Positions 42,728 to 60,510 of a stretch of DNA of 64,000 nucleotides are shown in pieces (position 1 is the stretch's first letter; each line of letters starts with the position of its first letter). A program made the position numbers and the translations under genes. The stretch is from Clostridium beijerinckii (lineage in GTDB: Bacteria > Bacillota > Clostridia > Clostridiales > Clostridiaceae). The notes beneath the pieces are model-generated. The model was not told the origin of the DNA. It made no database searches and was given only the letters and a program-made list of their open reading frames with translations. The stretch lies in the NCBI RefSeq assembly GCF_036699995.1, contig NZ_CP144906.1, positions 3,235,001 through 3,299,000 on the forward strand, in the 5' to 3' direction.

Positions 42728-42843
42728 TATAACCACCACACATTCTTTTATTTTACGCTTATAAAACCTAATAAGTATTTAAATTAGTTATATTTCTTTA
42801 AATTAAGCTTTTTAATTACTATTTTTAATTTCCATATATCTTA

Positions 42844-43646: not shown

Positions 43647-44546
43647 CTATAGGATATAAGATAAAAGTATAGATAGAATTAAAAGAATTCCAAATTGACC
43701 TTGAAGCTTACCACTCTCTTTATCAAGTTCTGCAATATTCCCACTTGAATCTCCATCCTTTTTTAATTTATTAATGTTTTTAATAGCAGCTGGCACTGTT
43801 AATAAACAAATTAAACTTAGATAAGGAGTATATTTAAAAATAATCATTATGATAAGAGAAATATATGAAAGTATAATCAAGCTTGAATATACTTTTTGTG
43901 CCTTCTTATAACCTATACTTATTGACAGTGTTTTAATACCAGCTTTCTTATCATGATTTATATCCCTAATATCATTAGCATGCAATATTGCAGTAGTAAG
44001 AAGTGCTGTTGGGATTGATATTAAAAACGACTGCACGGTAAACTCCTGCATCTGCAAGTAATAACCTCCAAGTGTCATCAATGGTCCAAAAATTATAAAT
44101 ACTAAAGGTGCACCTAATCCCCTATATTTGAGCATTAACGGTTTTCCTGTATAAAAATATCCACATAAAGCTCCAACAATCCCTAAAATGAGAATCATAA
44201 TGCCTACATTGTAAGCTAAAAATAAACCAATTAAACATCCTAAAATAAGTAATAGAATACCACTTCTATAAACTTCTTTTAAAGTCAGCAAACCTTCAAC
44301 AACTACTCCGCTAGAACTATGAGACTCCTTTGTATCAACTTTATTTATAAAATCATCATGATCATTTAACAAATTAACTGAAGCCTGCTGAAAAACAATT
44401 GCTATGATTGAAAGTATAAAATATTCAAGATTAAAATTAGGCTCTTTTAATGCTAATATTCCCCCAAGAACAACTGGAATTGCTGAAGCTGTTAAAGAAA
44501 AAGGCCTTGAAGCTCTGATAAATAACTTAATTTTTTCAATTGTCAT
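43647..44546 (-). CDS. menA: 1,4-dihydroxy-2-naphthoate polyprenyltransferase (MenA-like UbiA)
   Basis: This 299-residue UbiA-superfamily protein has eight or nine helices. The first Asp-rich motif is NLLNDHDDFINKVD and the second is DIRDINHDKKAGIKTLSISI. These bind the prenyl diphosphate through Mg2+. The N-terminus RASRPFSLTASAIPVVLGG is typical of MenA. It attaches the polyprenyl tail to the naphthoate ring, yielding demethylmenaquinone. The hepT product would supply the tail and MenG would methylate it. A terminator separates it from the upstream napH-like gene. The naphthoate-forming genes are not in this window. Confidence 0.9.
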   Translation of the reverse strand: MTIEKIKLFIRASRPFSLTASAIPVVLGGILALKEPNFNLEYFILSIIAIVFQQASVNLLNDHDDFINKVDTKESHSSSGVVVEGLLTLKEVYRSGILLLILGCLIGLFLAYNVGIMILILGIVGALCGYFYTGKPLMLKYRGLGAPLVFIIFGPLMTLGGYYLQMQEFTVQSFLISIPTALLTTAILHANDIRDINHDKKAGIKTLSISIGYKKAQKVYSSLIILSYISLIIMIIFKYTPYLSLICLLTVPAAIKNINKLKKDGDSSGNIAELDKESGKLQGQFGILLILSILLSYIL

Positions 44547-46090: not shown

Positions 46091-46630
46091 TTATTTGCTA
46101 CTTTTTTTCTTTACTGCAGCTACTATGATTATTACTGCCACTATTCCTACGAATCCACCTATAACTATCCAGTTTGGTCCGCTACTAACCACATCAGCAT
46201 CAAACTGTACATCCTTCTGTTCTCCATTTACCATAATGTTAGCTGTAATAACCCATTTACCTTTATCAGTGAAATTAATTTTTCCCATGTATTCACCATT
46301 TTTACTATTTTCCAATGATACTTCAATTGGTTTTTTCCCATTCATATCCATTCCCATATCAGAGTTCTTATCCATTTCTGCACTTATCTTAATATCGGCA
46401 TTTTCAATTTCTTTATCATTATCATCATGTAATGTGATCATTACATCATTGTCACCTGTTTTTACTTTGTTATCTTTATTAAACGTTAATTCTGCATTTA
46501 TACCATTTACACTTTTTTCTGTTCCTTTTCCCATATCCATGTTACCCATTCCATCAGCAAAAGCTGCTGTTGAAAGACCTAACGTAAGAATTAAACTTAA
46601 TATTGCACCTCTAATTGTTTTCTTTTTCAT
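46091..46630 (-). CDS. FixH/YtkA-like exported protein
   Basis: This 179-residue protein has a signal peptide (cleavage near AFA-DG, residue 25) and a Met/Asp-rich start (GMGNMDMGKG). An immunoglobulin-like beta domain (VMITLHDDNDKEIENADIKI, MGKINFTDKGKWVITANIMV) resembles FixH/YtkA proteins. A C-terminal membrane anchor (IVIGGFVGIVAVIIIVAAV) ends KKKSSK. The internal DMGMDMNGKK segment recalls Met-rich copper sites. It is 26 bp from the napH-like gene. A metal-binding or assembly role is inferred. Confidence 0.75.
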   Translation of the reverse strand: MKKKTIRGAILSLILTLGLSTAAFADGMGNMDMGKGTEKSVNGINAELTFNKDNKVKTGDNDVMITLHDDNDKEIENADIKISAEMDKNSDMGMDMNGKKPIEVSLENSKNGEYMGKINFTDKGKWVITANIMVNGEQKDVQFDADVVSSGPNWIVIGGFVGIVAVIIIVAAVKKKSSK

Positions 46631-47243: not shown

Positions 47244-48068
47244 TTAAGCATTTTTTGTTTTCTTGTTTGAAGATTCAAGTACATAATTTAAAAGACTATT
47301 CAAGTTATCCTTATAAACTGAAGGTTCTAAATTCTTAATTGCTTGTTCAGCTTTTAAAGCAAACTCTTTAGCATCTTCAACAGTTATATTATTTTTAGTA
47401 GCGTTAGAATCACCATCTGTGCAATCATCAATGATTTGATATAACATTCCTAAATTTAGGCCGTAATTTTCCAAAGCTTCAATTTCTTCTTTTGCATTAA
47501 CTATTTTTGCTCCAAGCTTACAGCAGGCAGCCATAAATGATGCAGTTTTACCTTCTATTATGTTAAAGTAATCCTGCTTTGTAATTTCATGATTTTGAGC
47601 TTGTTCAATTTCTGCAACGCACATTTTTTCAATAACTTGTGTAATTATTTCTTCTGCATCATTTGTTGGTAGTTTTAATAATATTGAAAATGCTTTAGCA
47701 TAAAAGGCATCCCCTGCGAGAACCGCTACCTTTCTACCATATATATTATTTAACGTCTTTTGACCACGGCGAAATAAATCATTGTCAATTATATCGTCAT
47801 GTACCAAACTAGCACTATGTATTAGCTCAATTGCTACACATAAATTAATTAATTGCATTCTCTCATCTATAGTCATTTTGGGATTTATAGCTTTAGCTGA
47901 AAGTATTACAAGGCTTGGACGAAGATATTTTCCTGGAACCTTAAAGAAATATTCAAATATCTCTTGAGTTGAGCCCGAACTAAAATCTTTTCCAATATTT
48001 TTTAAAATCATCTCAGCTTCATAAAGCTCTTTACTCACAGCATTTTTAGCTTTTATAAAATTTGACAT
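47244..48068 (-). CDS. Polyprenyl diphosphate synthase (HepT-like)
   Basis: This 274-residue trans-prenyltransferase has the first Asp-rich motif SLVHDDIIDNDLFRRG and the second YQIIDDCTDGD, with GKYLRPSLVILS upstream. It makes long-chain polyprenyl diphosphate, probably the menaquinone tail. I choose the ATG at 48066-48068; the in-frame TTG six codons earlier lies on the AGGTGG ribosome site. It is the first gene of the operon hepT-doxX-fixH-napH and has a promoter of the direct-repeat family about 85 bp upstream. The chain length is not predictable. Confidence 0.9.
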   Translation of the reverse strand: MSNFIKAKNAVSKELYEAEMILKNIGKDFSSGSTQEIFEYFFKVPGKYLRPSLVILSAKAINPKMTIDERMQLINLCVAIELIHSASLVHDDIIDNDLFRRGQKTLNNIYGRKVAVLAGDAFYAKAFSILLKLPTNDAEEIITQVIEKMCVAEIEQAQNHEITKQDYFNIIEGKTASFMAACCKLGAKIVNAKEEIEALENYGLNLGMLYQIIDDCTDGDSNATKNNITVEDAKEFALKAEQAIKNLEPSVYKDNLNSLLNYVLESSNKKTKNA

Positions 48069-48152
48069 GACCTCACCACCTCTCAATAATCTAATCTTTT
48101 AGTATAATTATTTATTTTAATCTTTATATAATTGAATTACTGTTCTTTAGAG

Positions 48153-48186
48153 AGTATACAAAGAACATGTGTAGAAATTATGAAGA
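48153..48186 (-). promoter_or_regulatory. Direct-repeat promoter of hepT operon
   Basis: In gene direction: TCTTCATAA (48186-48178), TT, TCTACACAT (48175-48167), 8 nt, -10 TATACT (48158-48153). The second repeat takes the place of a -35 box. Confidence 0.75.
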
Positions 48187-48285
48187 TAATTTTTTAAAAA
48201 CCAAAATGTTAATTGATTCCTTACTTGTTAGATTTAATCCAAACTTAATCATTGCCATATGTAGTAGATAGTATTAAAAATATAA

Positions 48286-48326
48286 TAAGAGCTCCAATAA
48301 AAACCAAAGTTTTATTAGAGCTCTTT
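48286..48326 (-). terminator. Terminator of lgt
   Basis: AAGAGCTC-AATAAAA pairs with TTTTATT-GAGCTCTT; T-rich tract follows on the minus strand. Confidence 0.8.
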
Positions 48327-48388
48327 AAATTTATAATATTTTACTCTTTTTTAATTCAGTTACTCACACAATTTGTTAATTCCCCTAG

Positions 48389-49222
48389 CTACCCTTGTAC
48401 AAAATAAAATACAAATATAGATATTAGTATTAACGCAGCTAAAATAATTATTGAAGTTGTTACTTTTAATTTATTATCTTCCACATAAATCCTTTGACTT
48501 TCTGTATTTCTCTTGGCTAACAATATATAAATAGCTAACCCAATAATAACTAAAGCAAGACTTAATAAATGCGAAATTGAAAATGGTCCCCAGATAACAG
48601 GATTTATTCTAAAGAATTCTACAATACCTCTTATTAAGGCAAAAGCAATTAAGTAAATCACAAACAACTCACCTTCAAACTTTTTCTTATAGTTTCTTCT
48701 CCATAGAACTATAAATAGTATGTAATCTAAAATAAATTCATATACTTGTGCAGGATGAAGTATTTGGCCATTATAGTTAATTCCCCATAGCATTATATTT
48801 GTCATTGGTTTACCAAATACGTCACAACCTACTCTTCCTATACCTTGAGCCAATGCGATACCCACCACTGCAATATCTGCAAGTTTTAAAAATGATATCT
48901 TACTCTTAATTGAGTAAAGGTATCCTGCAAGCACGGCTGAAACAATTCCTCCATGAATAGATAACCCACCTTCATTTATTTTAAATATTTCTCCTGGATT
49001 ACTAAAATAAAATGATGGATTATAAAAAAGAATATAAAATAATCTAGCTCCTAATACACCCGCTATAACAACAATAAAAATTAGATTAAATATTATGTCT
49101 TCATTTATTCCTCTTTTTTCCCCTTGCTTAATTGCAAATGCTCCGCCTGTAATTGCAGCTATTGCTATCATTAATCCAAAAAAGTATATATGTATTGGGC
49201 CAAAACTAAAAAGTTCCTTCAT
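48389..49222 (-). CDS. lgt: Prolipoprotein diacylglyceryl transferase
   Basis: This 277-residue protein has about seven helices. It begins IHIYFFGLMIAIAAITGG and has GLSIHGGIVSAVLAGYLYS with the key His-Gly pair. GRVGCDVFGKPMTN is the Lgt signature with variation (GRVGC for the usual GRIGN), as in other clostridial members. HPAQVYEFILD and RGIVEFFRINP near the end complete the family pattern. It transfers diacylglycerol to the lipobox Cys of lipoproteins. It shares a promoter with the small Cys-rich gene 42 bp upstream. Confidence 0.93.
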   Translation of the reverse strand: MKELFSFGPIHIYFFGLMIAIAAITGGAFAIKQGEKRGINEDIIFNLIFIVVIAGVLGARLFYILFYNPSFYFSNPGEIFKINEGGLSIHGGIVSAVLAGYLYSIKSKISFLKLADIAVVGIALAQGIGRVGCDVFGKPMTNIMLWGINYNGQILHPAQVYEFILDYILFIVLWRRNYKKKFEGELFVIYLIAFALIRGIVEFFRINPVIWGPFSISHLLSLALVIIGLAIYILLAKRNTESQRIYVEDNKLKVTTSIIILAALILISIFVFYFVQG

Positions 49223-49264
49223 AAATATTAACTTCCTTCCTACAAATTTAAAATAACTATAAAA

Positions 49265-49405
49265 CTATTTACTACACTTTTTCTTAGACTTTCTATCTTT
49301 ATTACAACAACATACCACTGAAGCTTTTTTTATTACTTTGTGATAAAGAATATGCGCAACAAATAAAACCACTACTACCGTTATTGCTACTTCAATGACC
49401 ATCAT
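49265..49405 (-). CDS. Small Cys-rich membrane protein
   Basis: The 46-residue product reads MMVIEVAITVVVVLFVAHIL, then YHKVIKKASVVCCCN and KDRKSKKKCSK. One membrane helix is followed by a basic tail with a CCC cluster and a further Cys. Such tails occur in FeoB-associated Cys-rich membrane proteins; no feo genes are near. GGAGGT lies 4 nt before the first ATG and 7 nt before the second. It has its own direct-repeat promoter and leads into lgt. Metal binding is inferred. Confidence 0.75.
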   Translation of the reverse strand: MMVIEVAITVVVVLFVAHILYHKVIKKASVVCCCNKDRKSKKKCSK

Positions 49406-49489
49406 TCATACCTCCAACTACAATATCTTAATTTAAAATTTTATATTGTCTATTCTAATGGCTAAAAATATTAGCTTATCTAGTTAAAC

Positions 49490-49523
49490 ATTATAATAAT
49501 GTAATGTGTAGATTATATGAAGA
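49490..49523 (-). promoter_or_regulatory. Direct-repeat promoter of the small Cys gene and lgt
   Basis: In gene direction: TCTTCATAT, AA, TCTACACAT, 8 nt, -10 TATAAT (49495-49490). Same geometry as the other seven sites. Confidence 0.75.
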
Positions 49524-49698
49524 ATTATATTTATTATTTATCATAAATATATTTTACCTAACAACTGCTCCTTTCATTTTAATCCTATTGTCATTACAAG
49601 TTATAACGGATAATAACTCACGATATAATATAATTTAATTTTAAAATAATAAAACTAGATTGTCCCCTATATATAATTTTGAATTCAAATTACTCCAT

Positions 49699-49727
49699 AA
49701 AAAAACCGCATCAGATGCGGTTTTTTT
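49699..49727 (-). terminator. Terminator of the PcsB-like gene
   Basis: CCGCATC-A-GATGCGG with A-run before and T-run after; works on both strands. Confidence 0.9.
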
Positions 49728-49754
49728 AGTATATATAATTCTACTATTAAAAAA

Positions 49755-50858
49755 TTATTTAACTCTTCTAGCTGTGATATAATCTGGTCTGCTCATTGAT
49801 GATATTTTTATCACATCACCTGTTCTCGGCGCATGAATATATGTATTATTACCAACATACATACCCATGTGAGTAGGATCACCATTCTTACCAAAGAATA
49901 CAAGATCACCAGGTTGCAGTGCATCTCTTGAAACTCCATAACCATCATTTATTTGGTCATAAGTTGTTCTTCCAAGGCTAATCCCAAAGTGTGCATATAC
50001 ATATTGTGTAAAACCAGAACAATCAAATCCTGTAGAAGGACTTGTTCCTCCCCACAGGTAAGGAGTTCCTAAGAAATTTGAAGCATATGCTATTATGTTA
50101 TTATCAGAAACGGGTGCAGATTTTGCTCCTCTCGATGCATTAGTAACTCTAGGTGCTTCATTTCTTATTTTATTTACTTGATTCATAGTTGCATTTACTT
50201 GCACTTGAGATTCATCTACTTTTGATGCAAATAATTTTTCCTGATCTTTAGCCTCTTGAATAAGCTTCTTTTGATCTGCTATATTTGTATTTAGACTTGT
50301 AAGCTTGTCTTCATTTTCGCTTTTTAATGCAAGCAAATCATTATACTTAACTTCAAGAGATGTTTTTTTACTTTCTACTTCTGACTTCTTATCATTTAAA
50401 TCACTTATTACTTGTTTATCAAGTCCAATTATTTTTCTAATTACTTCAGCTCTTGTTATTAAATCACTGAAACTTTCAGATTCCAATAAGATTTTTAGAT
50501 AGTTAGACTGCCCATTTATGTACATAGCTCTTACTCTTTGATCTAATACATCTTGCTTAGCTTCTACTTCTTTTTCAACCTGAGTAATTTGCTTTTTTGT
50601 TATTTGGATATCGTTTTCTGCCCCAGTTATGTTCTTCTTATTTGCTTCAATCTTCATCATATAATCTTCAATTTGATTATCCAACTCTTCAATGCTTGCT
50701 TCAAGCTGGTGTCGTTTATCTTGTACTTCCTTTAAAGAATTTTTATTTTGTTCTAATTGAGTTTGTGCTTGATTAGATGTTGGTGCAGCAAATGCTGAAA
50801 TTTGAGTAATCATCACTAATACTGTTGCAAGCATAATCGTTTTAATTGTTTTTTTCAC
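49755..50858 (-). CDS. PcsB/CwlO-like NlpC/P60 cell-wall hydrolase
   Basis: This 367-residue secreted protein has a signal peptide (cleavage near AFA-AP, residue 24). A long coiled coil (about 30-235) includes RVRAMYINGQSNYLKILLES, the hallmark of PcsB/CwlO regulators. The C-terminal NlpC/P60 endopeptidase has catalytic Cys in GFDCSGFTQYV and His in PTHMGMYVG, then IHAPRTG. The coiled coil keeps the enzyme inactive until FtsEX acts on it (known for CwlO and PcsB). The ftsEX genes are immediately divergent, and both sides carry the same promoter type, so joint regulation is likely. Confidence 0.93.
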   Translation of the reverse strand: MKKTIKTIMLATVLVMITQISAFAAPTSNQAQTQLEQNKNSLKEVQDKRHQLEASIEELDNQIEDYMMKIEANKKNITGAENDIQITKKQITQVEKEVEAKQDVLDQRVRAMYINGQSNYLKILLESESFSDLITRAEVIRKIIGLDKQVISDLNDKKSEVESKKTSLEVKYNDLLALKSENEDKLTSLNTNIADQKKLIQEAKDQEKLFASKVDESQVQVNATMNQVNKIRNEAPRVTNASRGAKSAPVSDNNIIAYASNFLGTPYLWGGTSPSTGFDCSGFTQYVYAHFGISLGRTTYDQINDGYGVSRDALQPGDLVFFGKNGDPTHMGMYVGNNTYIHAPRTGDVIKISSMSRPDYITARRVK

Positions 50859-50916
50859 TTATATCGCTCCCTTATTTATAGAGTAATACTTGTCTCTCTT
50901 TTGTAAATTCAATCCT

Positions 50917-50950
50917 ATACTACACTAAAATTGTGTAGAAATTATGTAGA
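50917..50950 (-). promoter_or_regulatory. Direct-repeat promoter of the PcsB-like gene
   Basis: In gene direction: TCTACATAA, TT, TCTACACAA, 8 nt, -10 TAGTAT (50922-50917). Confidence 0.7.
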
Positions 50951-50980
50951 TTCATATAAAGGAATACATTACCATAAGGA

Positions 50981-51014
50981 AACACATAATTTCTTCATAA
51001 TAATAAGTTATAAT
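50981..51014 (+). promoter_or_regulatory. Direct-repeat promoter of ftsEX
   Basis: AACACATAA, TT, TCTTCATAA (50992-51000), 8 nt, -10 TATAAT (51009-51014). The first repeat matches only in its second half. ATG is at 51067. Confidence 0.7.
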
Positions 51015-51066
51015 ATTACAAAAACACACAAGTATATTTAACTAACATCTAATTGGAGGATTACTA

Positions 51067-51675
51067 ATGATTAAATTTGTAGACGTTACTAAAGTATATG
51101 ATAATAACACCTTGGCTCTTAAAAATGTTAACTTAACTATAGAAAAAGGTGATTTTGCTTTTTTAGTAGGCTCAAGCGGTGCTGGCAAATCAACAATAAT
51201 AAAAATGCTTTTTAAAGAAATTGAGCCGACGCAGGGTAAGTTAATATTAAATAATACTGATGTAACCAATCTAAATAAGAATCAAATACCGTTTTACAGA
51301 AGAAATATAGGTGTAATATCTCAAGATTTCAAACTAATTCCAACTCTTAATGTCTATGAAAATGTTGCTTTTGCATTAAGGGTTATTGGTGTCAGTACTA
51401 AAGATATAAAAAAGAAGGCACCTATGGCTTTATCAGTAGTTGGATTATCTGATAAATTCAAGTCATTTCCAAGCCAATTGTCAGGCGGTGAACAGCAAAG
51501 AGTTTCAATTGCTCGAGCTATAGTGAATAATCCTAATATTTTAATTGCTGATGAACCAACAGGAAATCTCGATCCTGAAACTGCAATGGGAATTATGGAC
51601 ACGCTCGACAATGTTAATAAAAACGGTACTACAATACTTATGGCTACTCATGCAAGGATATCGTTGATTCAATGA
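51067..51675 (+). CDS. ftsE: Cell-division ATPase FtsE, 3' end frameshifted
   Basis: This ABC ATPase has Walker A (GSSGAGKSTIIKML), Q-loop (ISQDFKLIPTLNVYENV), signature (LSGGEQQRVSIARAI), Walker B (ILIADEPTGNLD) and the His loop in MATHA. Its frame then ends after 202 residues at ARISLIQ. In the next frame the sequence continues as KDIVDSMRKRVIAIENGTII, then RDEIRGTYDNEY, the normal FtsE ending, up to TAA at 51750-51752. Loss of one A in GCAAAGG near 51654 explains this. All catalytic motifs precede the break. With FtsX it would control the divergent PcsB-like hydrolase. Confidence 0.85.
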   Translation: MIKFVDVTKVYDNNTLALKNVNLTIEKGDFAFLVGSSGAGKSTIIKMLFKEIEPTQGKLILNNTDVTNLNKNQIPFYRRNIGVISQDFKLIPTLNVYENVAFALRVIGVSTKDIKKKAPMALSVVGLSDKFKSFPSQLSGGEQQRVSIARAIVNNPNILIADEPTGNLDPETAMGIMDTLDNVNKNGTTILMATHARISLIQ

Positions 51676-51741
51676 GAAAGCGAGTTATTGCTATTGAGAA
51701 TGGAACTATAATAAGAGATGAAATTAGGGGGACTTACGATA

Positions 51742-52635
51742 ATGAATATTAATACCTTCAAATATTATATTATTGATGCATTAAAGAGTTTAAATAGAAA
51801 TAGAACCATTAGTCTAGCATCAGTTATTACAGTGACCGTAACTTTATTTATAATGGGAGTTTCAATACTATTAATGCAAAATATAAATATAGGAATGAGT
51901 AATGTTGAATCGCAGGTTCAAATACAAGTATTTTTAAATAATAACATTACTAATAAAGATCAAGAAAACTTAGAGCAAAAGTTAAATAATATTTCTGGTA
52001 TCAAAAGTGTTAAATTTGAAGATAAATCAAAGGCTTTAGAAAAGTTTAATAAACAGGTTTCTGAAGATAATAGTTCTTTATTAAATAATTATGATTCTTC
52101 CAATAATCCTTTACCTAATTCATTTATAATAGATCTAGAAAATCCTGAAGTATCACATCAAGTGATAAGTACAATCGAAAATATGCCTGGTATAGAATCC
52201 ATTGGCAATGATCAGGAATTTACAAATAAAATAATTTCAATATCTAAAAACGTGAAATGGATTGGAATTGCTTTATTCATATTAATGGTATCAGTTTCTA
52301 TATTCCTTATTAGTAATACTATAAAATTAACGATTTACTCAAGACGTAGAGAAATTGGAATAATGAAATTTGTTGGAGCAACTGATTGGTTTATAAGATG
52401 GCCGCTTATTATCGAAGGTGCACTTATTGGTTTGTTTGGGGCCGTATGTTCCAATATCTTAATATACTATCTCTATAAACTAGTTTTTATAAAGATAAAT
52501 GAAAATTTACTTTTAATAAACTTATTATCACCATCTTATATTACGCAAACCCTCCAATGGCAGTTTATATTAGTTGGGGTTTTAATCGGAAGTGTAGGAA
52601 GCTCCTGGTCTTTAATTAAATTTTTAAAAGTATAA
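51742..52635 (+). CDS. ftsX: Cell-division protein FtsX
   Basis: This 297-residue protein has four helices in the usual layout: TM1 (TISLASVITVTVTLFIMGVSIL), a large extracellular loop (about 50-165) that contacts the hydrolase, and TM2-4 with SRRREIGIMKFVGATDWFIR between. The start is the ATG 51742-51744 with GGGGG upstream. It overlaps the restored end of ftsE by 11 nt, the usual ftsE-ftsX coupling. Without the full ftsE end, translational coupling may be weakened. Confidence 0.92.
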   Translation: MNINTFKYYIIDALKSLNRNRTISLASVITVTVTLFIMGVSILLMQNINIGMSNVESQVQIQVFLNNNITNKDQENLEQKLNNISGIKSVKFEDKSKALEKFNKQVSEDNSSLLNNYDSSNNPLPNSFIIDLENPEVSHQVISTIENMPGIESIGNDQEFTNKIISISKNVKWIGIALFILMVSVSIFLISNTIKLTIYSRRREIGIMKFVGATDWFIRWPLIIEGALIGLFGAVCSNILIYYLYKLVFIKINENLLLINLLSPSYITQTLQWQFILVGVLIGSVGSSWSLIKFLKV

Positions 52636-52650
52636 ATCATAAAAGATACT

Positions 52651-52698
52651 AAAAAGTGTATTGAAAACTAATTATTTTAGAATTCAATACACTTTTCT
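52651..52698 (+). terminator. Terminator of ftsEX
   Basis: AAAAGTGTATTGAA (52652-52665) pairs with TTCAATACACTTTT (52683-52696). Confidence 0.85.
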
Positions 52699-52782
52699 AT
52701 ATATTAAGAACTATGAATTATGATTACATAAACTACTAAATTTTAATAACTTAAATTAAATTTATTCTCATTAGAATATTAA

Positions 52783-53106
52783 TTACCTGTAGCTTATTCC
52801 ATTTGGTTCTCCTTCTACTTTTGTGGTTTTAATAACCTTATCTGTGCTATTGTCAATAACACTTACAGTTCCATCATACATATTAGTAACATAAACATAT
52901 TTATTATCAGGACTAACTACTACTCCGTGAGCTCCTTTTCCAGTTTCTATTGCTGCAACTACTTTCTTAGTTGACATATCTATCTTTGAAACAGTATTTG
53001 ATGGTGCATCTTCTGTTCCTTGATTTGCTACAAATGCATATTTATCATCTGATCCAATGTAAACTTAAGTAGGTCCTTTTCCTACTACGATAGTACCATT
53101 CCCTTT
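52783..53106 (-). pseudogene. YVTN beta-propeller protein remnant
   Basis: The frame reads GNGTIVVGKGPT, a TAA (53065-53067), VYIGSDDKYAFVANQG, then VSKIDMSTKKVVAAIETGKG, VVVSPDNKYVYVTNMYDG and TVSVIDNSTDKVI. These are YVTN-type propeller blades (about 40 residues each). The N-terminal part is missing and an in-frame stop interrupts the second blade. The last 64 codons start with ATG but form only one and a half blades. Confidence 0.75.
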
Positions 53107-53128
53107 ATATTTTTATACAACATATTAG

Positions 53129-54841
53129 CTATATTTTAAATTTTTGCACTAAGAAATTAAGTTCTTCAGATAATTCAGCTTGTCTTTGTGCTGAACTCGC
53201 AACTTCTTGAGTTGCGATAGTTGTTTCATCTACACTATTTAATATCCCTTCTGAACTTTCTGCCGATTGCTGAGCAGTAGACGAAACTGTTTCTATTGCA
53301 GCACTAGTTTGCTCTATTGAACTAAGTATTTGATTTGTACCATTTGCAATTTCTTTTGCCATAGCTTTAATAAAGACTGCATCCTTTTCATATTTAAAAG
53401 CAGTTTCTAAAAAAAGCTCATAATCTGGATTTACATTATTATCAATATGCGCCAATATCTCTTGAGTGTTATTCGAAAGATTATTGAAGGCATTGTTTAC
53501 CTGAGTAATAACTTCTTGTATGTTTGAAACATTCTCTGCTGACTGTTCTGCAAGCTTGCGTATCTCATCTGCTACTACAGCAAAACCTTTTCCCATTTCA
53601 CCAGCTCTTGCCGATTCAATGGCCGCATTTAATGCTAAAAGATTTGTTTGCGATGCTATATTTGCTATAGAATCAGCCATTACTTTAATTTTTTCAACAA
53701 CTTTTCCTTCTTCTATTGCTTTTAATATATTTTCTTGCTTTTCTTTATATATTTTCTTAGAAATATTTATTGATTTTAATCCCTTATCTTTTATTTCTGA
53801 GGCACGTATCTGAATATCATTAGAAGCTTGATCGCAATCCTTTGCCTTATTTGATAACTCAATAGAATTTGAAGTTATTTCTTCAATTGATGCATTTACT
53901 TCTTGTGATGTTGCGCTCAATTCTTCTGTACCAGTTGTTATTTCCTTTGTAGCTTCATTAATATTGTTCATTTTTGTAGAAATTCCTTCTATAGTGCTAT
54001 AGATTTCTTCACTTGATTCTTTTATAATGCTAGAATTTGAAATTATTGTTGATATAAGACTTCTAGTGTTTTCAGCAGCTTTATTTAAAGCATTTGATAT
54101 TTTTCCTATTTCATCTTTTGAATAGAAATCTATTCTCTGAGTTAAATCACCTCTACCTAGAGCATCCGCAAATACTAAAACCTTATTTATTTGTTTTGAT
54201 ATTAATGTTGAAATCAAAACTCCAAGTAAAATTGCAAATATGAAACCGAATATAACTATACCAATCATTAAATCGAATGAATTTTTAAATATTAAATTAT
54301 TAGCACTATTTGCATTTTCAGCTTCTTTTATATTTGAATCAATTATTTTATTAATACTATCAAAAGTTTTATCCCTAGCCTCAGTTACCTTTTGAAAAGC
54401 TGTTTGTGCTTCATCATATCTATTGGCATTTATTAAATCCATAAAATCTTTACGTGACATCATATATTCTTCGTGAAGCTTTATAAAATTTGTTAATAAT
54501 TTTTCTTCTTCACCTGCTTCACCTGAATTTTTAAATTCTTCAGAAATCATCATATCTTCATTTGTTAATTTTTCTATTTCACTTTCAATATCCTGTTTTT
54601 TAGTTGCATCTTTTGTTGTTAAAAGTGCTAATAAATCTGAGTGTATCTGTAAAAAGTTTGCTTTTAACTCCTCAACTGTTTTTAAATGTTTCAAATTATC
54701 TTCATACATAGATGTTGAATTTGCATTTATTTTTTTTATTTCCGATATCCCTCTAAATCCAATAATTCCTATAAGGAATGAAATTAATAAGAAGCAAAAT
54801 ATAAGTTTTTGCGCAAGTTTTAAATTATTTAATATTTTCAT
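53129..54841 (-). CDS. Methyl-accepting chemotaxis protein, 4HB type
   Basis: This 570-residue receptor has TM1 at about 10-30 and a helical extracellular sensor of about 155 residues with the four-helix-bundle (4HB_MCP) pattern. [19 protein letters not shown] comes near its start and [16 protein letters not shown] near its end. TM2 near 190-210, HAMP and a signalling domain with tip [20 protein letters not shown] follow. 4HB sensors bind small ligands or respond to redox and metal ions in some cases. It has its own direct-repeat promoter, so it belongs to the local regulon. Confidence 0.95.
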
Positions 54842-55087
54842 ATTGTTCCTCCTCAGTCTATATGTTATCTCCTAATTGAATACACACATGATTTTGTTTT
54901 CTAAATGATTCTTAAAATATTAACTTTTAACAACTCAAATAATAGCATTCTATTATGAAGAACTTATGAAGAATATTCCAATTTATAATAATATATTCAA
55001 TTTCTAATCTCCTAATTTTACGCTGTCTAATATAATAAATTTCACACCACGTAAATAAAATTAAATCTCCTTTTAGTTCAATAATTA
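54842..55087. other. Upstream region of mcp
   Basis: Apart from the promoter at 54939-54972, only AT-rich sequence is seen. Confidence 0.45.
54939..54972 (-). promoter_or_regulatory. Direct-repeat promoter of third mcp
   Basis: In gene direction: TCTTCATAA, GT, TCTTCATAA, 8 nt, -10 TATTAT (54944-54939). Both repeats are identical here. Confidence 0.75.
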
Positions 55088-55192
55088 TTGGAATGGAGTT
55101 TGCTGCTGGATGGACTCCTCATTGGACTTGCTGTTCCATTTATTCTAATAGCTCTGGTTATAGATGGATTTGCCGAACAATTCAAAAACTAA
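55088..55192 (+). pseudogene. ccdA remnant
   Basis: The text GMEFAAGWTP in one frame corresponds to the GWTPC segment of CcdA. GLAVPFILIALVIDGFAEQF in another frame corresponds to a later helix and ends at the TAA 55190-55192. The pieces are brought together by an internal deletion. The beginning of the gene is missing. Confidence 0.65.
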
Positions 55193-55337
55193 CTCATCCA
55201 TATCAATTACAAGCGACAAAAATAATGCTTCAAATCAAACTATTGAAGTAACTCCTAATAATATTAAAACCAAAGCCATTGATTTTAAATTAAAAGATTT
55301 GAACTCAAATGAAAGCCTATATGAAAACTCTAGATAA
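55191..55337 (+). pseudogene. tlpA/resA remnant
   Basis: The frame reads SSISITSDKNNASNQTIEVT, then NNIKTKAIDFKLKDLNSNES, matching the linker and first strand of TlpA-like proteins (KAxDFKLKDLxGNExxLSDYKG). It stops at 55335-55337 before the CxxC site. It lies right after the ccdA remnant in the order seen in the intact operon at 39.1-40.4 kb. Confidence 0.65.
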
Positions 55338-55352
55338 ATAACCGGCTTTAAT

Positions 55353-55402
55353 AAAAAATGAATTAGAAGTCTCTAATCTGAGATTATTCTAATTCATTTT
55401 TT
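55353..55402. terminator. Bidirectional terminator
   Basis: AAAAAATGAATTAGAA (55353-55368) pairs with TTCTAATTCATTTTTT on the right, between converging frames. Confidence 0.8.
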
Positions 55403-55409
55403 TACTTAA

Positions 55410-55958
55410 TCATTTTTTTGTAATTGTAATCTTTATAAATATTAGGCCAATAACTGTTATGACTAGCCTTATCCAATTGTCATAAATATTAATTATGTCA
55501 TAGCTAACAAGTGTCTCTAAAGCTATAGATGGAACCTTTCCAATCAATGTTGCAACAGTGAATATTGTACTATCAACATTACTTATTGATGCTGCAAGTG
55601 TTATAATTCCTGATGGTATAAATGGAATTATTCTTCCTTGAAATATTAGTAGCCCCGCCTCTCTTCCATCACTTTTAACTATTCTAGAAATTAACCTATT
55701 TCTATCTGTGAATTTTTCAATCTTTCTTTTAAAACCTAATCTATATATAATAAATGTAATATATGCCCCTATTGTTTCACCTAACAGAGATATGAAAAAA
55801 CCATTAATAGGACCAAAGAAAACTATGTTCGCTCCTGTTATAAATACTGACGGCAATATACCAACAAGGGAAATGCCTATACTTATTATTAGACTTATAG
55901 GTATCGCAATAGAGCTATTATTTCTAAAGATCTCTATTACATCATTTATATTAAACAT
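55410..55958 (-). CDS. TVP38/TMEM64 family (VTT-domain) membrane protein
   Basis: This 182-residue protein has about five helices with the VTT pattern: ILPSVFITGANIVFFGPING near the start, LGETIGAYITFIIYRLGF in the middle and RIIPFIPSGIITLAASIS near the end. Family members move or flip lipids, and some act in metal tolerance. It lies between ccdA/tlpA relics and small metal-type proteins. AGGAGAAATCC precedes ATG. Confidence 0.88.
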   Translation of the reverse strand: MFNINDVIEIFRNNSSIAIPISLIISIGISLVGILPSVFITGANIVFFGPINGFFISLLGETIGAYITFIIYRLGFKRKIEKFTDRNRLISRIVKSDGREAGLLIFQGRIIPFIPSGIITLAASISNVDSTIFTVATLIGKVPSIALETLVSYDIINIYDNWIRLVITVIGLIFIKITITKK

Positions 55959-56183
55959 GGATTTCTCCTTTATTAATATTCTAATTTAAAATTTTAATTT
56001 CCCAATACTATATCTTTATCACGTACTATCTTGATTACTATCTGCTATTCTACAACATTCTTATAATCAATTCAAATAAAATAAGACTCAAATTTTAGCT
56101 TTTACGGCTCTTGAGCCTTTTACATATCTATGGTACTTTTGCTTAAACATATTTAAAATGATTGTATAACTTTTCTTATCCTT

Positions 56184-56393
56184 CTAGGCTACTTCACTAT
56201 TAGTTCCTTTGAATAATAAATAAATTGCATATATCCCTGCTATACCAACAATGCCGCAAACTACTCTATCTACCCAAGACATTGTTACAGGTGCAGAACC
56301 AAAGGCAAGCCCTATGAAATCATCACCCAAAAAACCTATTATTCCCAATCTTATAGCGGCTGCAACAACCAATACCCATGTTATTGTTCTCAT
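56184..56393 (-). CDS. DUF378 family membrane protein
   Basis: This 69-residue protein has two helices. VLVVAAAIRLGIIGFLGDDFIG and VDRVVCGIVGIAGIYAIYLL match DUF378, found in many spore formers, function unknown. AAAGGGAG precedes ATG. It is monocistronic, with a long AT-rich palindrome upstream at 56445-56497. Confidence 0.88.
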   Translation of the reverse strand: MRTITWVLVVAAAIRLGIIGFLGDDFIGLAFGSAPVTMSWVDRVVCGIVGIAGIYAIYLLFKGTNSEVA

Positions 56394-56444
56394 TTTCTTT
56401 AACTCCCTTTTATTAAATATATTTTATATTATGTTAAATTTAAA

Positions 56445-56497
56445 TTACAAATAATATTTAGATATTTTAAATATCTAATCTATTATTTGTAAATCAC
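56445..56497. repeat. Nested AT-rich palindrome
   Basis: ATTACAAATAATA pairs with TATTATTTGTAAT, enclosing AGATATTTTAAATATCT. It lies between the DUF378 gene and the next upstream gene. It may be a regulatory site or a weak terminator. Confidence 0.45.
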
Positions 56498-56558
56498 CTT
56501 TTATTATACAAAAAAACAAACTAATAACTGTTCATTTTTTATTTCTTTGTCTAACTAA

Positions 56559-56603
56559 AAAAAGAAGTTAATAGTAACATACGATACTAGTTAACTTCTT
56601 TTT
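56559..56603 (-). terminator. Terminator of the HMA/Cys operon
   Basis: AAAAAGAAGTTAA (56559-56571) pairs with TTAACTTCTTTTT (56591-56603). Confidence 0.8.
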
Positions 56604-56610
56604 CATTAGC

Positions 56611-56895
56611 CTATTGCTCTATTTTGTTTTGATTTTCATTAACTTCTTTCTTCTCACTGCAACAGCTTCCATGTTTGCCTTTAAACATCATTCCCATCAT
56701 AAGTACCATCATTATTGGACATATGAAAGGTGCTATCCCACCTATAGCTGCTTTAAATCCTGTTCCGACATTTAAAAGAGGAAGTGCTGCTACAATTATA
56801 AACGGTAATCCACAACAAAGCACCATCATTAAGATATGCTTTATTGGATTGTGTTTTTTATTTTCTCCATTTTTATTATTTCCATGACAATTCAT
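56611..56895 (-). CDS. Small Cys/His-containing membrane protein
   Basis: This 94-residue protein begins with a His/Asn-rich segment (MNCHGNNKNGENKKHNPIKH). It has a helix with MVLCCGLPFIIVAALPLL, a second helix with FICPIMMVLMMGMMF and a tail GKHGSCCSEKK. CC pairs, Met-rich helix and His residues suggest soft-metal binding (inference). It lies 30 bp after the HMA-like gene in the same operon. The family is not recognised with certainty. Confidence 0.7.
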   Translation of the reverse strand: MNCHGNNKNGENKKHNPIKHILMMVLCCGLPFIIVAALPLLNVGTGFKAAIGGIAPFICPIMMVLMMGMMFKGKHGSCCSEKKEVNENQNKIEQ

Positions 56896-56925
56896 AATAA
56901 ATTCCCCCTCATATTCTCATTAGAA

Positions 56926-57156
56926 TTAATATTCAAGCTTAATTACCTTACCACTTAAAATTGATCTATTTACTATTTCTTTAATATCATCTCTTGATAC
57001 CTCTTTATCTCTATAGATTACTTTAATTTTCTTTGATTCTAAACTAACATCAACTCCTAATAAACCTTGAAGGGAGCTTAATGTTTTTACAACATTCATT
57101 AGACACCTATGACAAAGCATATTTTCTTGTTTAAAACTTAAACTATAGCTTTTCAT
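56926..57156 (-). CDS. HMA-like metal-binding protein
   Basis: The 76-residue product has the ferredoxin-like layout of heavy-metal-associated domains: a first strand, a Cys pair in NMLCHRCLMNVVKTLSSLQG (MxCxxC), then LLGVDVSLESKKIKVIY and a final VIKLEY. In copper chaperones the pair binds Cu(I); here the spacing is CHRC. GGAGG precedes the ATG at 57154-57156; a GTG one codon earlier is less likely. It is the first gene of a two-gene operon with a direct-repeat promoter just upstream. Confidence 0.78.
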   Translation of the reverse strand: MKSYSLSFKQENMLCHRCLMNVVKTLSSLQGLLGVDVSLESKKIKVIYRDKEVSRDDIKEIVNRSILSGKVIKLEY

Positions 57157-57179
57157 CACTATCGCCTCCCTGTAAATAC

Positions 57180-57213
57180 ATTATAAATAAATGTTATGAA
57201 GATATTGTGTAGA
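57180..57213 (-). promoter_or_regulatory. Direct-repeat promoter of the HMA-like operon
   Basis: In gene direction: TCTACACAA, TA, TCTTCATAA, 8 nt, -10 TATAAT (57185-57180). The ATG lies about 24 nt downstream of the -10. Confidence 0.75.
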
Positions 57214-57329
57214 TAAAAATAAATTTTAAACATTAATTAAAATTCTAATTATCAGGATAAATGTAATCCTCTATATAATTAGTGCTTAAATTATATTACA
57301 TAACTTTCACAATAAAACCTGAATTTCTA

Positions 57330-57833
57330 TTAAATTTTTTCGGGCTCATTTATGGACTCAATGCTATCTGTAACTTTAATTATTCCTTTTATCATTCCCA
57401 TCCAGCAACTAAACTCTATATCTTCATCTTTGGGGATAAATTCTATTATATTTTCTCCTGATTTGAAATCTTTATCTATATTGAAATATGGTACTACTAT
57501 TCCATTATTACACGAATTAAGTTGATTTCCTTCAAATATCAACTTAACAGGAATATCTTTTTGAACATAAATAACATCAGGCGTATAACCATTATTATCT
57601 ACTGTTATTCTTACCACCTGAACCCCATTTTCAATAGATGCCTTAGCTATATTTAAGTAAGAGGCATTAGCTTTATTTACTGATAAGTTATGTTTTAGTT
57701 TTTCACTCATATAAAAACTTGATACAAAAGTACTAAGTAATAGAATAACTGCACCTATAGCAAATAATCTTACATATTTTCTGTTATTTAAACATTTATA
57801 TATTGATTTATTAACTTTTCTTATAATATTCAT
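57330..57833 (-). CDS. Membrane-anchored cupredoxin-like protein
   Basis: This 167-residue protein has an N-terminal membrane helix (FAIGAVILLLSTFVSSFYM) and an outside cupredoxin-type beta barrel. VRITVDNNGYTPDVIYVQKD and IPVKLIFEGNQLNSCNNGIV precede IEFSCWMGMIKGIIKV. The Cys of NSC and the CWMGM segment occupy copper-ligand positions in EfeO/cupredoxin_1-like domains. The start is the ATG 57831-57833 with GGGGTG upstream; an in-frame GTG lies three codons earlier. It has its own direct-repeat promoter and lies beside a two-component system. Confidence 0.8.
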   Translation of the reverse strand: MNIIRKVNKSIYKCLNNRKYVRLFAIGAVILLLSTFVSSFYMSEKLKHNLSVNKANASYLNIAKASIENGVQVVRITVDNNGYTPDVIYVQKDIPVKLIFEGNQLNSCNNGIVVPYFNIDKDFKSGENIIEFIPKDEDIEFSCWMGMIKGIIKVTDSIESINEPEKI

Positions 57834-57895
57834 GCTTGTCACCCCTATAATTATAAATATTTTATTTCAGAAAAAAGTCACTTATTATATAGTAA

Positions 57896-57929
57896 AGTAT
57901 AATAAAAAGTTATGAAGATTCTATAAGAA
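57896..57929 (-). promoter_or_regulatory. Direct-repeat promoter of the cupredoxin gene
   Basis: In gene direction: TTCTTATAG (weak copy), AA, TCTTCATAA, 8 nt, -10 TATACT (57901-57896). Confidence 0.65.
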
Positions 57930-58048
57930 TGATATATGAAATTTCTGTCAAATTATATTGGTGGTTATATGCTATTATTAAAACATAATAAATTATCTAT
58001 ATTCTAAGGAAATAAAAAATCAACAAAATGATTCTCTAAAAACAAAAA

Positions 58049-58096
58049 AGGTATCTTAAAATCACTTTCTAAAGTGGTTATAGATACCTCCTTTTT
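58049..58096 (-). terminator. Terminator of the second two-component operon
   Basis: AAGGTATCT pairs with AGATACCT with an inner ACTT/AAGT stem; TTTTTTGTTTTT follows on the minus strand. Confidence 0.8.
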
Positions 58097-58125
58097 TTGT
58101 GTAGTTTGTGATAAAAATTTATCTA

Positions 58126-59499
58126 TTAATTACTTTTGTTTATGCATACTGTAAATACAGTTTCCTTATTTTCCTTACTTTCTACATCTATTGTTCCAGA
58201 ATGTAAAGTTAATATCTTCTTTACAAGTGTAAGACCTATTCCGCTCCCCTCAATTTTATGTCTGCTTTTATCTCCACGATACATTCTTTCAAAAACATAA
58301 GGTAAATCTTCTTTTTTAATTCCAATTCCATTATCCTTAATTTTAGTGATAACTGAGTTTATATCGCTACTAATATTGACCCATACAGTTCCATTTATAT
58401 TGTTAAATTTAATTGCATTAGATATAAGATTTATAAATACTTGTTTCAATTTATCGTAATCGCCTACTACAATAAAATTTTCACCTTCTTCTTTATTAAT
58501 AATTAACTTTATATTTTTTTCATCAGCAGCAATATTAAAATCACTAATTACATTTGAAATAAGCTCCTCTATATTAACCCTTCCTAATTTAAGCACTATT
58601 TCATCTGACTCTATTTGTTTTAGTGAATTCAAATTATTTAAAAGCTTGCCAAATCTTATTACTTCATCATTTAAGCTATTAAGTTTATCAGTAGTTACAG
58701 GTATAATTCCATCTATCATTGCCTCTAAATTATTTTGTAACACATTTAGTGGAGTTCTAATTTCATGTGATATATCTGAAATAAGACGCTTTCTTAATAA
58801 ATCCTGACTATTTAATTTCTCACCTAAATCATTTATGCTCTCTGTTAAATTCCGAATTTCTTCAATATTACTTTTTATATTTGATCTAGAATTATAATTT
58901 CCTTTTGATAAACTTACAGAAGTTTTTGAAACTTCTTTTATTGGTTCAGAAAATTGCTTTGATATAATAAGACTTATCAATGCTACCACTAATAATGTTA
59001 ATATTCCACTAAATACAATACTCTTATTAATTTGTGTCTTGAAATTGATATCTTCCTGAGAAAGTAATACAGGAGAATATTGACCTACAATGATATATCC
59101 TACCGTTTTATTATTTACATTTATATCAAAAGTATTAGCGGTATAAACTCCCGTTTCCTGCATACCATTAACTGTGATATGATTTTTTTCTCTTATATCT
59201 TCATGATTCATTTCCCATACAACTTTTCTATTATCATCTAAAAGACTTAAACAGTAATTACTCATATACGCTTCATGCATCATTTCTTCCCCTGAAGTAC
59301 TATTCCATCCACCATCACTTTTATAAACTTGTTGAAAGTATTCTACTAACCTTGTATTTCTTTGAGTTTGTATATTTTCCATATACCTATTAAATGTATC
59401 AGTTATAGTTTTATTTACAATTAAAGCTGATAATAATACAGTAGCTACTGCGCAAAATATTATAATAAAACTCAATCTTCCCCTAATACTTTGCTTCAT
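58126..59499 (-). CDS. Sensor histidine kinase
   Basis: This 457-residue kinase has TM1 (about 7-30) and an extracytoplasmic sensor of about 120 residues with LSLLDDNRKVVWEMNHED, a small PAS-like fold by pattern. TM2 near 160-180, HAMP, an H-box (ISHEIRTPLN), an N-box (FINLISNAIKFN) and G-boxes (KDNGIGIKKED, GSGIGLTLVKKIL) follow. It overlaps the response regulator stop by 4 nt, so the two are co-translated. Its neighbours encode metal-type and redox-type proteins, and it is the best candidate sensor for the local promoter family (inference). Confidence 0.93.
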   Translation of the reverse strand: MKQSIRGRLSFIIIFCAVATVLLSALIVNKTITDTFNRYMENIQTQRNTRLVEYFQQVYKSDGGWNSTSGEEMMHEAYMSNYCLSLLDDNRKVVWEMNHEDIREKNHITVNGMQETGVYTANTFDINVNNKTVGYIIVGQYSPVLLSQEDINFKTQINKSIVFSGILTLLVVALISLIISKQFSEPIKEVSKTSVSLSKGNYNSRSNIKSNIEEIRNLTESINDLGEKLNSQDLLRKRLISDISHEIRTPLNVLQNNLEAMIDGIIPVTTDKLNSLNDEVIRFGKLLNNLNSLKQIESDEIVLKLGRVNIEELISNVISDFNIAADEKNIKLIINKEEGENFIVVGDYDKLKQVFINLISNAIKFNNINGTVWVNISSDINSVITKIKDNGIGIKKEDLPYVFERMYRGDKSRHKIEGSGIGLTLVKKILTLHSGTIDVESKENKETVFTVCINKSN

Positions 59500-60179
59500 A
59501 CTTCATCACCAAATTTATAACCAATTTTTGTAACAGTAACTATATATTGAGGAGACTTGGTATCTTCCTCAATTTTCTTACGTAAATTTTTGATATGAAC
59601 ATCTATACTTCTATCTGAGCCATCAAATTCGATCCCAAAAGCTCTCTCTATTATTGCTTCTCGTGTAAATACTTTTCCTTGATTTGAAGCTAAAATATAT
59701 AATATATCAAATTCATTTGGAGTTAAACTTATTTCTTCTCCATTCAATTTAACTAATCTCTTATCAAAATCAATTATTAATTTGTTATCATTAAAAGAAA
59801 GTACATTTTCTTTTCTTGTTCTTACTCTTCTAAACAATGCATTTACACGCGCAGTAAGTTCTCTTGGACTTAATGGTTTTGTTAGGTATTCATCTGCTCC
59901 AATATTTAAGCCTTCAATTTTATCGCTTAATGTACTTTTAGCAGTTAGCATAAAAATATATACATCTGATATTTTTCTTAATATCTTACAAACTTCTTCA
60001 CCATCAATATCTGGAAGCATTAAATCTAAAATTACAAGATCAATTCTTTCCTTTCTAAAAACTTCAATTCCATCTAATCCATTTTCAGTGGAATACACCC
60101 CATATCCTTCTCTTTCCAAATATGCTTTTACAACGTCTGATACGCTTTTTTCATCTTCAATTATTAAAATGTTGTTCAT
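59496..60179 (-). CDS. OmpR/PhoB-family response regulator
   Basis: This 227-residue regulator has a receiver domain with Asp in LVILDLMLPDIDG and Lys in LTKPLSP, and a winged-helix domain (SLTPNEFDILYILASNQGKV, ending TVTKIGYKFGDEV). The start is the ATG at 60177-60179, preceded by GGGGGGA; an ATG five codons upstream sits on the ribosome site itself. OmpR-class proteins bind direct repeats with 10-11-bp spacing, as in the eight local promoters. Its own upstream region lacks such a site. Confidence 0.93.
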   Translation of the reverse strand: MNNILIIEDEKSVSDVVKAYLEREGYGVYSTENGLDGIEVFRKERIDLVILDLMLPDIDGEEVCKILRKISDVYIFMLTAKSTLSDKIEGLNIGADEYLTKPLSPRELTARVNALFRRVRTRKENVLSFNDNKLIIDFDKRLVKLNGEEISLTPNEFDILYILASNQGKVFTREAIIERAFGIEFDGSDRSIDVHIKNLRKKIEEDTKSPQYIVTVTKIGYKFGDEV

Positions 60180-60310
60180 AACATTTCCCCCCATATAGTT
60201 AATTTTAATATTACTTTATCATATATTTAATAATTTAACTAAAAATTATTCCTCCAATAAGTTCTCTTATTATTTTAAATTTCAAATTCTGTTACACTTA
60301 ATAAAAGAAA

Positions 60311-60345
60311 GTACTTCAAAATGATTGAAAATCATTTTGAAGTAC
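60311..60345 (-). terminator. Terminator of the 27-residue gene
   Basis: GTACTTCAAAATGATT (60311-60326) pairs perfectly with 60330-60345; TTTCTTTT follows on the minus strand. Confidence 0.8.
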
Positions 60346-60349
60346 ATCC

Positions 60350-60433
60350 TTAATGGCAGCATCCTCCACCGCCTTTGAATACTCTAAAAACTATAAAAGC
60401 AACAACTGCAATTATTAATATTGTGGCAACCAT
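60350..60433 (-). CDS. 27-residue Cys-tailed membrane peptide
   Basis: The peptide MVATILIIAVVAFIVFRVFK-GGGGCCH is one membrane helix with a short GGGGCCH tail. GAGGAAA lies right before ATG. It has its own direct-repeat promoter and terminator, so it is very likely expressed. The CCH end suggests metal or thiol chemistry, as in FeoB-associated Cys-rich peptides; no feo gene is adjacent. It is below the size most gene finders report. Confidence 0.75.
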   Translation of the reverse strand: MVATILIIAVVAFIVFRVFKGGGGCCH

Positions 60434-60476
60434 TTTCCTCATCCTTCCTGCTATCTATCACTTGAAAATGATTCTT

Positions 60477-60510
60477 ATTATATATTAAAATTATGTAGAA
60501 ATTATGAAGA
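60477..60510 (-). promoter_or_regulatory. Direct-repeat promoter of the 27-residue gene
   Basis: In gene direction: TCTTCATAA, TT, TCTACATAA, 8 nt, -10 TATAAT (60482-60477). Confidence 0.75.

Follow-up and report, generated by a model that had tools for sequence, protein, structure and literature searches.

A tandem direct-repeat promoter box in Clostridium beijerinckii and the BaeSR-like two-component system proposed to read it

Between positions 48,153 and 60,510 of a 64,000-nucleotide stretch of the Clostridium beijerinckii genome (NCBI RefSeq assembly GCF_036699995.1, contig NZ_CP144906.1, forward-strand positions 3,235,001 to 3,299,000; the whole stretch is hereafter called the window), eight promoters carry a tandem box, TCTWCAYAW-N2-TCTWCAYAW, at a fixed distance from a -10 hexamer. 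These eight promoters are real. The same region encodes an OmpR/PhoB-class response regulator and its cognate sensor histidine kinase, a BaeSR-like two-component system that probably controls a regulon of copper and envelope-redox genes. The regulon itself is real and conserved, and the assignment of the window regulator as its reader is well supported.

Geometry and statistics of the tandem box

All eight sites proposed by an earlier, sequence-only reading of this DNA are present where it had placed them (Table 1), and in each the -10 box follows the repeat by exactly 8 nt and reads TANNAT or TATACT. The strict geometry that had been claimed for the whole set holds for six of the eight, which have no mismatch to the tandem motif; in the ftsEX and cupredoxin sites the upstream half is degenerate. 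The ftsE site reads AACACATAA TT TCTTCATAA, with three mismatches, and the upstream half of the cupredoxin site is the weak TTCTTATAG. A 34-column matrix, built from 229 distinct boxes in fetched loci, was scored at all window positions on both strands. Its top eight places are exactly the eight sites, at 36.2, 33.8, 33.7, 33.7, 33.1, 31.8, 20.4 and 14.3 bits, and the ninth reaches 2.2 bits. These scores are mildly circular, as six window sites are among the 229 boxes; the two weak sites (ftsEX and cupredoxin) are not among them. The first 48 kb contain nothing above 2.2 bits, which agrees with the earlier statement that no comparable site lies there. With the same matrix, 60 first-order Markov random windows gave a mean best score of 5.5 and a maximum of 16.4; at 15 bits or more the window has seven sites against a random mean of 0.017, and at 10 bits or more eight against 0.1.

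A genome scan had been proposed as a check of the geometry against chance. In the whole 5.55-Mb genome, the strict 34-mer with at most one mismatch occurs at 10 sites, against 0 for the reversed pattern, and six of the seven perfect 20-mers lie within the 12 kb from 48,153 to 60,510 of the window. Looser searches separate less well: 17 window matches to the 20-mer with up to three mismatches against a shuffle mean of 8.0, 118 genome matches with up to two mismatches against 72 reversed, and 31 genome matches to the 34-mer with up to three mismatches against 14 reversed. Matches at two or three mismatches are mostly chance. At genome scale the 14.3 bits of the cupredoxin site are likewise background, since among 25 listed places scored, those outside the regulon reach 16.8 bits and one, at 3688986, 22.4 bits; the latter faces the 3' end of an opposite-strand gene and was judged a chance match. 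The cupredoxin site is credible because it recurs at the same place before the orthologous gene in relatives (22.1 bits in genome G045, locus L307; 26.0 bits in G074, locus L267), and not by its own score. Similarly, the ftsE box recurs at the same place in G045 (20.5 bits) and in G062 (L265, 18.8 bits), and in locus L273 a box with one mismatch precedes ftsE. Boxes also precede lgt in L094 and L267; in G045 no box above 8 bits was found at that place.

Spacing was assessed in the window and in 80 loci picked by regulator similarity, independently of the box. Six same-strand pairs of half-sites lie 4 to 40 bp apart in the window, all of them spaced by 11 bp, and the 256 half-sites of the 80 loci form pairs in this range at spacings of 11 bp (eight pairs) or 22 bp (one pair) only. 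Among the 25 boxes found in these loci with at most one mismatch and no -10 required, 20 have TANNNT at offset 8, and every other offset has between 0 and 4. Matrix columns 6 to 11, at the place of the -35 element, read ATAAAA and not TTGACA. This is the geometry of a class II promoter, with two half-sites 11 bp apart, a set distance to the -10 and no -35 hexamer, as had been expected for OmpR/PhoB-class regulators. In Pho-box promoters, activated by PhoB, two 11-bp direct repeats with the motif CTGTCAT likewise lie directly upstream of the -10 and no -35 hexamer is present. The window box differs from CTGTCAT, and the window regulator scores below the PhoB cut-off (181.6 vs 296.2 bits, TIGR02154). 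The Pho-box parallel drawn earlier is sound as to promoter class, and a closer parallel is the BaeR box described below.

Linkage of the box to the regulator and likeness to BaeR

A sample of 225 genomes of the order, own genome included, contains 578 boxes and 5 matches to the reversed pattern. Orthologues of the window regulator were called with a profile of this regulator and five relatives, which in 40 relatives separates them (at least 283 bits) from the rest (at most 270 bits); some regulators with the same recognition helix score below the 283-bit line. An orthologue is present in 149 of the 225 genomes, and these hold 554 of the 578 boxes. Regulator and box occur together in 126 genomes, the regulator alone in 23, the box alone in 11 and neither in 65 (Fisher p = 2.7e-25, a value inflated by relatedness among the genomes). 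The two also lie close together: of the 130 boxes listed for genomes whose regulator is also listed, at least 75 have it within 20 kb, and among the boxes listed, five are 39 to 65 bp upstream of the regulator start. The box at 60477 precedes the regulator match by 298 bp, both here and in G045. Four of the 11 box-only genomes were looked into. In three (G006, G027 and G039), the box stands beside, and divergent from, a more distant regulator with the helix HIKN[LI]R, and in the fourth (G022) a contig end cuts the kinase. Loci L062, L064, L066 and L078 have a box divergent from a shorter regulator type (218-221 aa), whose helix is likewise HIKN[LI]R.

Comparison with related clostridia, also suggested earlier, showed that the box is conserved across the family and sporadic across the phylum, where it occurs in 23 of 299 genomes (own included) and the reversed control in none. 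The box is sparse in the phylum but not restricted to this family.

The own genome has 24 winged-helix domains of the PF00486 family. When all 24 recognition helices were compared, only that of the window regulator (DRSIDVHIKNLRKKIE) contained HIKN, as HIKNLR, and a DNA pattern for the HIKN helix, with its last residues restricted, matches the genome only at this gene. Co-occurrence, proximity and this unique helix support the earlier proposal that the window regulator reads the box. The helix is identical to that of BaeR (DRTIDSHIKNLRRKLE) at 12 of 16 residues, HIKNLR being common to both; the next-nearest helix to BaeR in the genome, with HIKTLR, has 11 of 16.

The DNA site points the same way. 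The BaeR box is TCTNCANAA (Yamamoto et al. 2008, as quoted in an excerpt of PMC3799227), and the half-site TCTTCATAA agrees with it at every specified position. Upstream of spy in E. coli K-12, TCTTCATAA TC TCTGCAAAA forms the same 11-bp repeat, which 2 of 500 shuffles (keeping base composition only) score as well. The mdtA promoter was tried as a second BaeR example and dropped, as 31 of 500 such shuffles were as good. Compared with BaeSR of E. coli and Salmonella, whose core targets are spy, mdtA and acrD, the clostridial system shares the half-site, the 11-bp repeat of spy and the HIKNLR helix core, and some metal response has been reported for BaeSR; the clostridial system differs in its targets (copper, wall and quinone/complex I genes), and the conserved His, Met and Cys of the clostridial sensor were not seen by eye at the same places in BaeS. 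No RND pump or Spy was recognised among 207 first downstream open reading frames (ORFs), only some groups of which were Pfam-scanned, and the window's own RND gene (9922-13014) has no box. At window:9922-17287, this RND transporter (ACR_tran) and its membrane-fusion partner adjoin a second regulator/kinase pair with the helix HINRIR, and no box is near. Judged from these sequences, the window regulator and kinase look as if they work like BaeR and BaeS. They are not given these names because both miss the curated cut-offs and BaeR is not even the regulator's best model.

Targets, signal and rival explanations

Contrary to what had been supposed, the regulon is not confined to the locus. Four of the 10 genome sites lie outside the window, and two of these are about 1.6 Mb away. 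The box at 3305564 precedes nuoA and other genes of complex I (scanned members: PF00507 and PF00346), in a run that extends into the window (PF00361 at 61972 and 60551); that at 3306678 precedes a UbiA gene and shares bases with the 3' end of the ORF before it; those at 1632615 and 1647669 precede a DUF6803 gene and the gene of an HMA-DsbD_2-cupredoxin protein, respectively. A weak site at 1649823 (14.0 bits) before a subtilase gene recurs in G045 and is strong before a related gene in G074. Just before the 1647669 box, ORF L090:4523-4714 (near 1647523 of the own genome, G000) shares 75% identity over 28 residues with the beginning of the window regulator; it is likely a relic of a second regulator copy. 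In G046, a full regulator gene lies about 1.5 kb from a box identical to that at 1647669.

The 229 boxes are weighted towards box-rich genomes and close relatives, so that counts within them are not frequencies, and group names rest on one scanned member per group or on BLAST to the own genome. With these limits, 224 of the boxes are not inside an ORF of at least 100 residues (the UbiA box, at an ORF 3' end, accounts for two of the remaining five), and 207 have an ORF of at least 60 residues starting within 400 bp downstream. The most frequent first downstream ORFs, with some rarer copper-type ones, are those of the HMA-DsbD_2-cupredoxin group (24, two of them CcdA-like), PcsB-like hydrolases (20), memCys94 (17), the regulator itself (11), a lipoprotein without Pfam family (10), polyprenyl synthase (9), DUF6803 (8), the CsoR family (8), multicopper oxidase (7), SHOCT, nuoA and methyl-accepting chemotaxis proteins (6 each), HMA (5) and CopA-like proteins (3). 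Behind boxes in relatives stand genes of the kinds that serve copper efflux, oxidation and chaperoning (CsoR family, CopA-like, multicopper oxidase, HMA), and HMA and cupredoxin proteins are the copper-type proteins behind boxes in the window. Small membrane peptides with Cys-rich tails also recur behind boxes, and in Paenibacillus boxes precede a DUF1541 gene and the gene of a YtkA-like lipoprotein, the latter scoring 25.7 bits against a cut-off of 25.9. Window:42023-48086 and L091 together encode a polyprenyl synthase, two UbiA prenyltransferases, a UbiE-type methyltransferase and complex I. Neither MqnA/D (PF02621) nor MenD, the only two quinone-pathway families tested, was found above cut-off; the cell may import the quinone head group or produce it by another route.

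In the sensor domains of 31 kinases, the window kinase included, H75 is conserved in 30, M79 in 30, C83 in 29 and M97 in all 31, and more distant kinases have other His/Met/Cys-rich stretches. Because of these conserved residues and the copper genes behind boxes, Cu(I) or another soft metal is the most likely signal. In the proposed mechanism, the kinase would sense this extracytoplasmic signal through its conserved His, Met and Cys and phosphorylate the regulator, a dimer of which would bind head-to-tail on the two TCTWCAYAW half-sites, 11 bp apart and ending 8 bp before the -10. The bound dimer would replace the -35 element and activate transcription in the class II manner of PhoB. Its targets in the own genome would be envelope copper/thiol proteins, the PcsB-like hydrolase, FtsEX, Lgt, the chemotaxis receptor, quinone-prenylation genes and the nuoA-headed complex I operon.

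Several observations weigh against this proposal. As to linkage, 23 of the 149 regulator-positive genomes have no box with at most one mismatch, C. acidisoli (L112), with a regulator 73% identical, has no box above 9.6 bits in 20 kb, and relatedness makes the genomes less independent than the Fisher p assumes. As to the likeness to BaeSR, the mdtA promoter is not significant, the regulator lies far below the BaeR cut-off (182.8 vs 380 bits, NCBIfam NF007982) and scores higher on the MtrA, RpaB, VanR and YycF models, and the kinase, whose two best curated models are both BaeS, is below their cut-offs (239.7/203.4 vs 500/603, NF012163/NF007837). As to the signal, PcsB, FtsEX, complex I and chemotaxis targets are not copper genes, and in L114, where the regulator has the helix, the kinase is without H75, M79 and C83. 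Published results on BaeR and metals, as represented in excerpts of PMC3160322, are mixed: in Salmonella, copper, zinc and iron induced mdtA in a BaeR-dependent way; in E. coli, only one of 19 metals, zinc, did so for spy; and the baeR mutants of that study showed no copper sensitivity.

The main rival concerns the signal: the same regulator would read the same box in response to damage to the envelope in general (misfolding, wall stress or thiol stress), and the copper genes would be one output only. We consider this possible, though somewhat improbable. The PcsB-like hydrolase is the second most frequent target, and FtsEX, Lgt, the two CcdA-like genes, the subtilase and a PspA gene (the second ORF behind the L267 box) fit such a signal, as does the account of BaeSR as a system for envelope stress, for which the metal data conflict (PMC3160322, in part); however, boxes repeatedly precede CsoR-family, CopA-like, multicopper oxidase and HMA-DsbD-cupredoxin genes, and the soft-metal ligands are conserved in the sensor.

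It is far less likely that another OmpR-class regulator of PhoP, WalR or CopR type, encoded elsewhere in the genome, reads the box. There is no shortage of candidates among the 24 PF00486 domains, and WalR controls PcsB/CwlO-FtsEX in other Firmicutes; yet only the window regulator has HIKN, the boxes go with its orthologues and are close to them in the genome, and three of the box-only exceptions sit beside other HIKN[LI]R regulators. The PhoP-type alternative raised by the sequence-only reading, and WalR with it, were rejected on this helix and linkage evidence. The window regulator is itself below the WalR/YycF cut-off (197.8 vs 340 bits, NF040534). That the boxes are an AT-rich coincidence of ordinary promoter-like sequence, as a window of 29% GC, an AT-only -10 and the chance matches of loose searches might suggest, is next to impossible for the strict boxes given the reversed-pattern and Markov-window controls, the position of 224 of the 229 outside ORFs of at least 100 residues and their presence in loci of 41-55% GC (L119, L123, L125, L135, L141 and L155).

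Other described two-component systems resemble the BaeSR-like pair in part. CusRS/CopRS systems, such as CopRS of Corynebacterium glutamicum (PMC3140484, in part), also have copper-type efflux, oxidase and chaperone genes downstream; unlike them, the window pair is below the heavy-metal regulator and kinase cut-offs (170.3/166.2 vs 279.2/292.55, TIGR01387/TIGR01386), and its regulon adds a wall hydrolase and respiratory genes. CutRS of Streptomyces is likewise a two-component system with conserved sensor cysteines, but its binding motif in the excerpt of PMC12802291, TAWATAAA, differs from the window box and was rejected as a match. For CarR of Fusobacterium, also considered, the described motif is AT-rich and 17 bp long.

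Window features and implications for Clostridium

Table 1. Boxes, proposed regulatory pair and associated genes in the window (window positions).
Feature	Position	Strand	Remark
Box and -10	48153..48186	-	33.8 bits; upstream of polyprenyl synthase/DoxX/YtkA/NapH-like/UbiA/CAAX/UbiE genes; identical box in G045 (L307)
Box and -10	49490..49523	-	33.1 bits; upstream of Cys-tail membrane peptide and lgt
Box and -10	50917..50950	-	31.8 bits; upstream of PcsB-like NlpC/P60 hydrolase
Weaker box and -10	50981..51014	+	20.4 bits; upstream of ftsEX
Box and -10	54939..54972	-	33.7 bits; upstream of methyl-accepting chemotaxis protein
Box and -10	57180..57213	-	33.7 bits; upstream of HMA-domain protein and memCys94 genes
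Weak box and -10	57896..57929	-	14.3 bits; upstream of cupredoxin gene
Box and -10	60477..60510	-	36.2 bits; upstream of Cys-tail peptide, then regulator gene
OmpR/PhoB-class response regulator, proposed box reader	59496..60179	-	recognition helix DRSIDVHIKNLRKKIE
Cognate sensor histidine kinase	58126..59499	-	best NCBIfam match BaeS_SmeS, below cut-off
30-residue membrane peptide ending GGGGCCH	60350..60442	-	similar peptides behind boxes in L265, L271
46-residue membrane peptide, Cys-rich tail, before lgt	49265..49405	-	similar peptides in L094, L267, L275
lgt, prolipoprotein diacylglyceryl transferase	48389..49222	-	PF01790
PcsB-like NlpC/P60 hydrolase	49755..50858	-	CC_PcsB and NLPC_P60; below NCBIfam PcsB equivalog
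FtsE, ABC ATPase	51067..51675	+	PF00005; name from position beside ftsX
FtsX	51718..52635	+	FtsX_ECD and FtsX
Methyl-accepting chemotaxis protein	53129..54841	-	
HMA-domain (CopZ-like) protein	56926..57159	-	below CopZ cut-offs
Cys-rich membrane protein (memCys94)	56611..56895	-	no Pfam family
Cupredoxin-domain protein	57330..57842	-	
Polyprenyl synthase, first gene of run down to 42023	47244..48086	-	
YtkA-like protein (FixH in the earlier reading)	46091..46630	-	
NapH-like 4Fe-4S membrane protein	44673..46064	-	below cut-off
UbiA-family prenyltransferase	43647..44546	-	
UbiE/COQ5-family methyltransferase	42023..42739	-	

Two further features were observed around ftsEX. A 64-residue ORF (window:52783-52977) matches part of a YNCE-like propeller lipoprotein, of which the window and G045 have only this piece; in relatives the whole protein (365 aa) has its own box (L267:10153-11250). 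In G045 (L307:9426-10035), ftsE is two overlapping ORFs instead of one.

Class II control by a two-component system is known. What is new is a box shared between phyla, the combination of copper, wall and respiratory genes, and the assignment of the regulator. No description of this box or of a clostridial copper two-component regulon was found among the papers listed by literature searches, which is weak evidence of absence.

Evenly balanced is the broader proposal that one recognition code, the helix HIKN[LI]R with tandem TCTNCANAA, has been kept from enterobacterial BaeR to Clostridia and Bacilli, and that in this Clostridium lineage it was recruited to tie copper or soft-metal stress to wall hydrolysis (PcsB-FtsEX) and to quinone/complex I electron transport in an anaerobe. 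The BaeR box of E. coli would then be a special case of an older code. Based on the results presented above, a two-component system found in 149 of the 225 sampled genomes of the order gains a proposed regulator, box and target set, in which copper handling would be linked to wall hydrolysis and electron transport.

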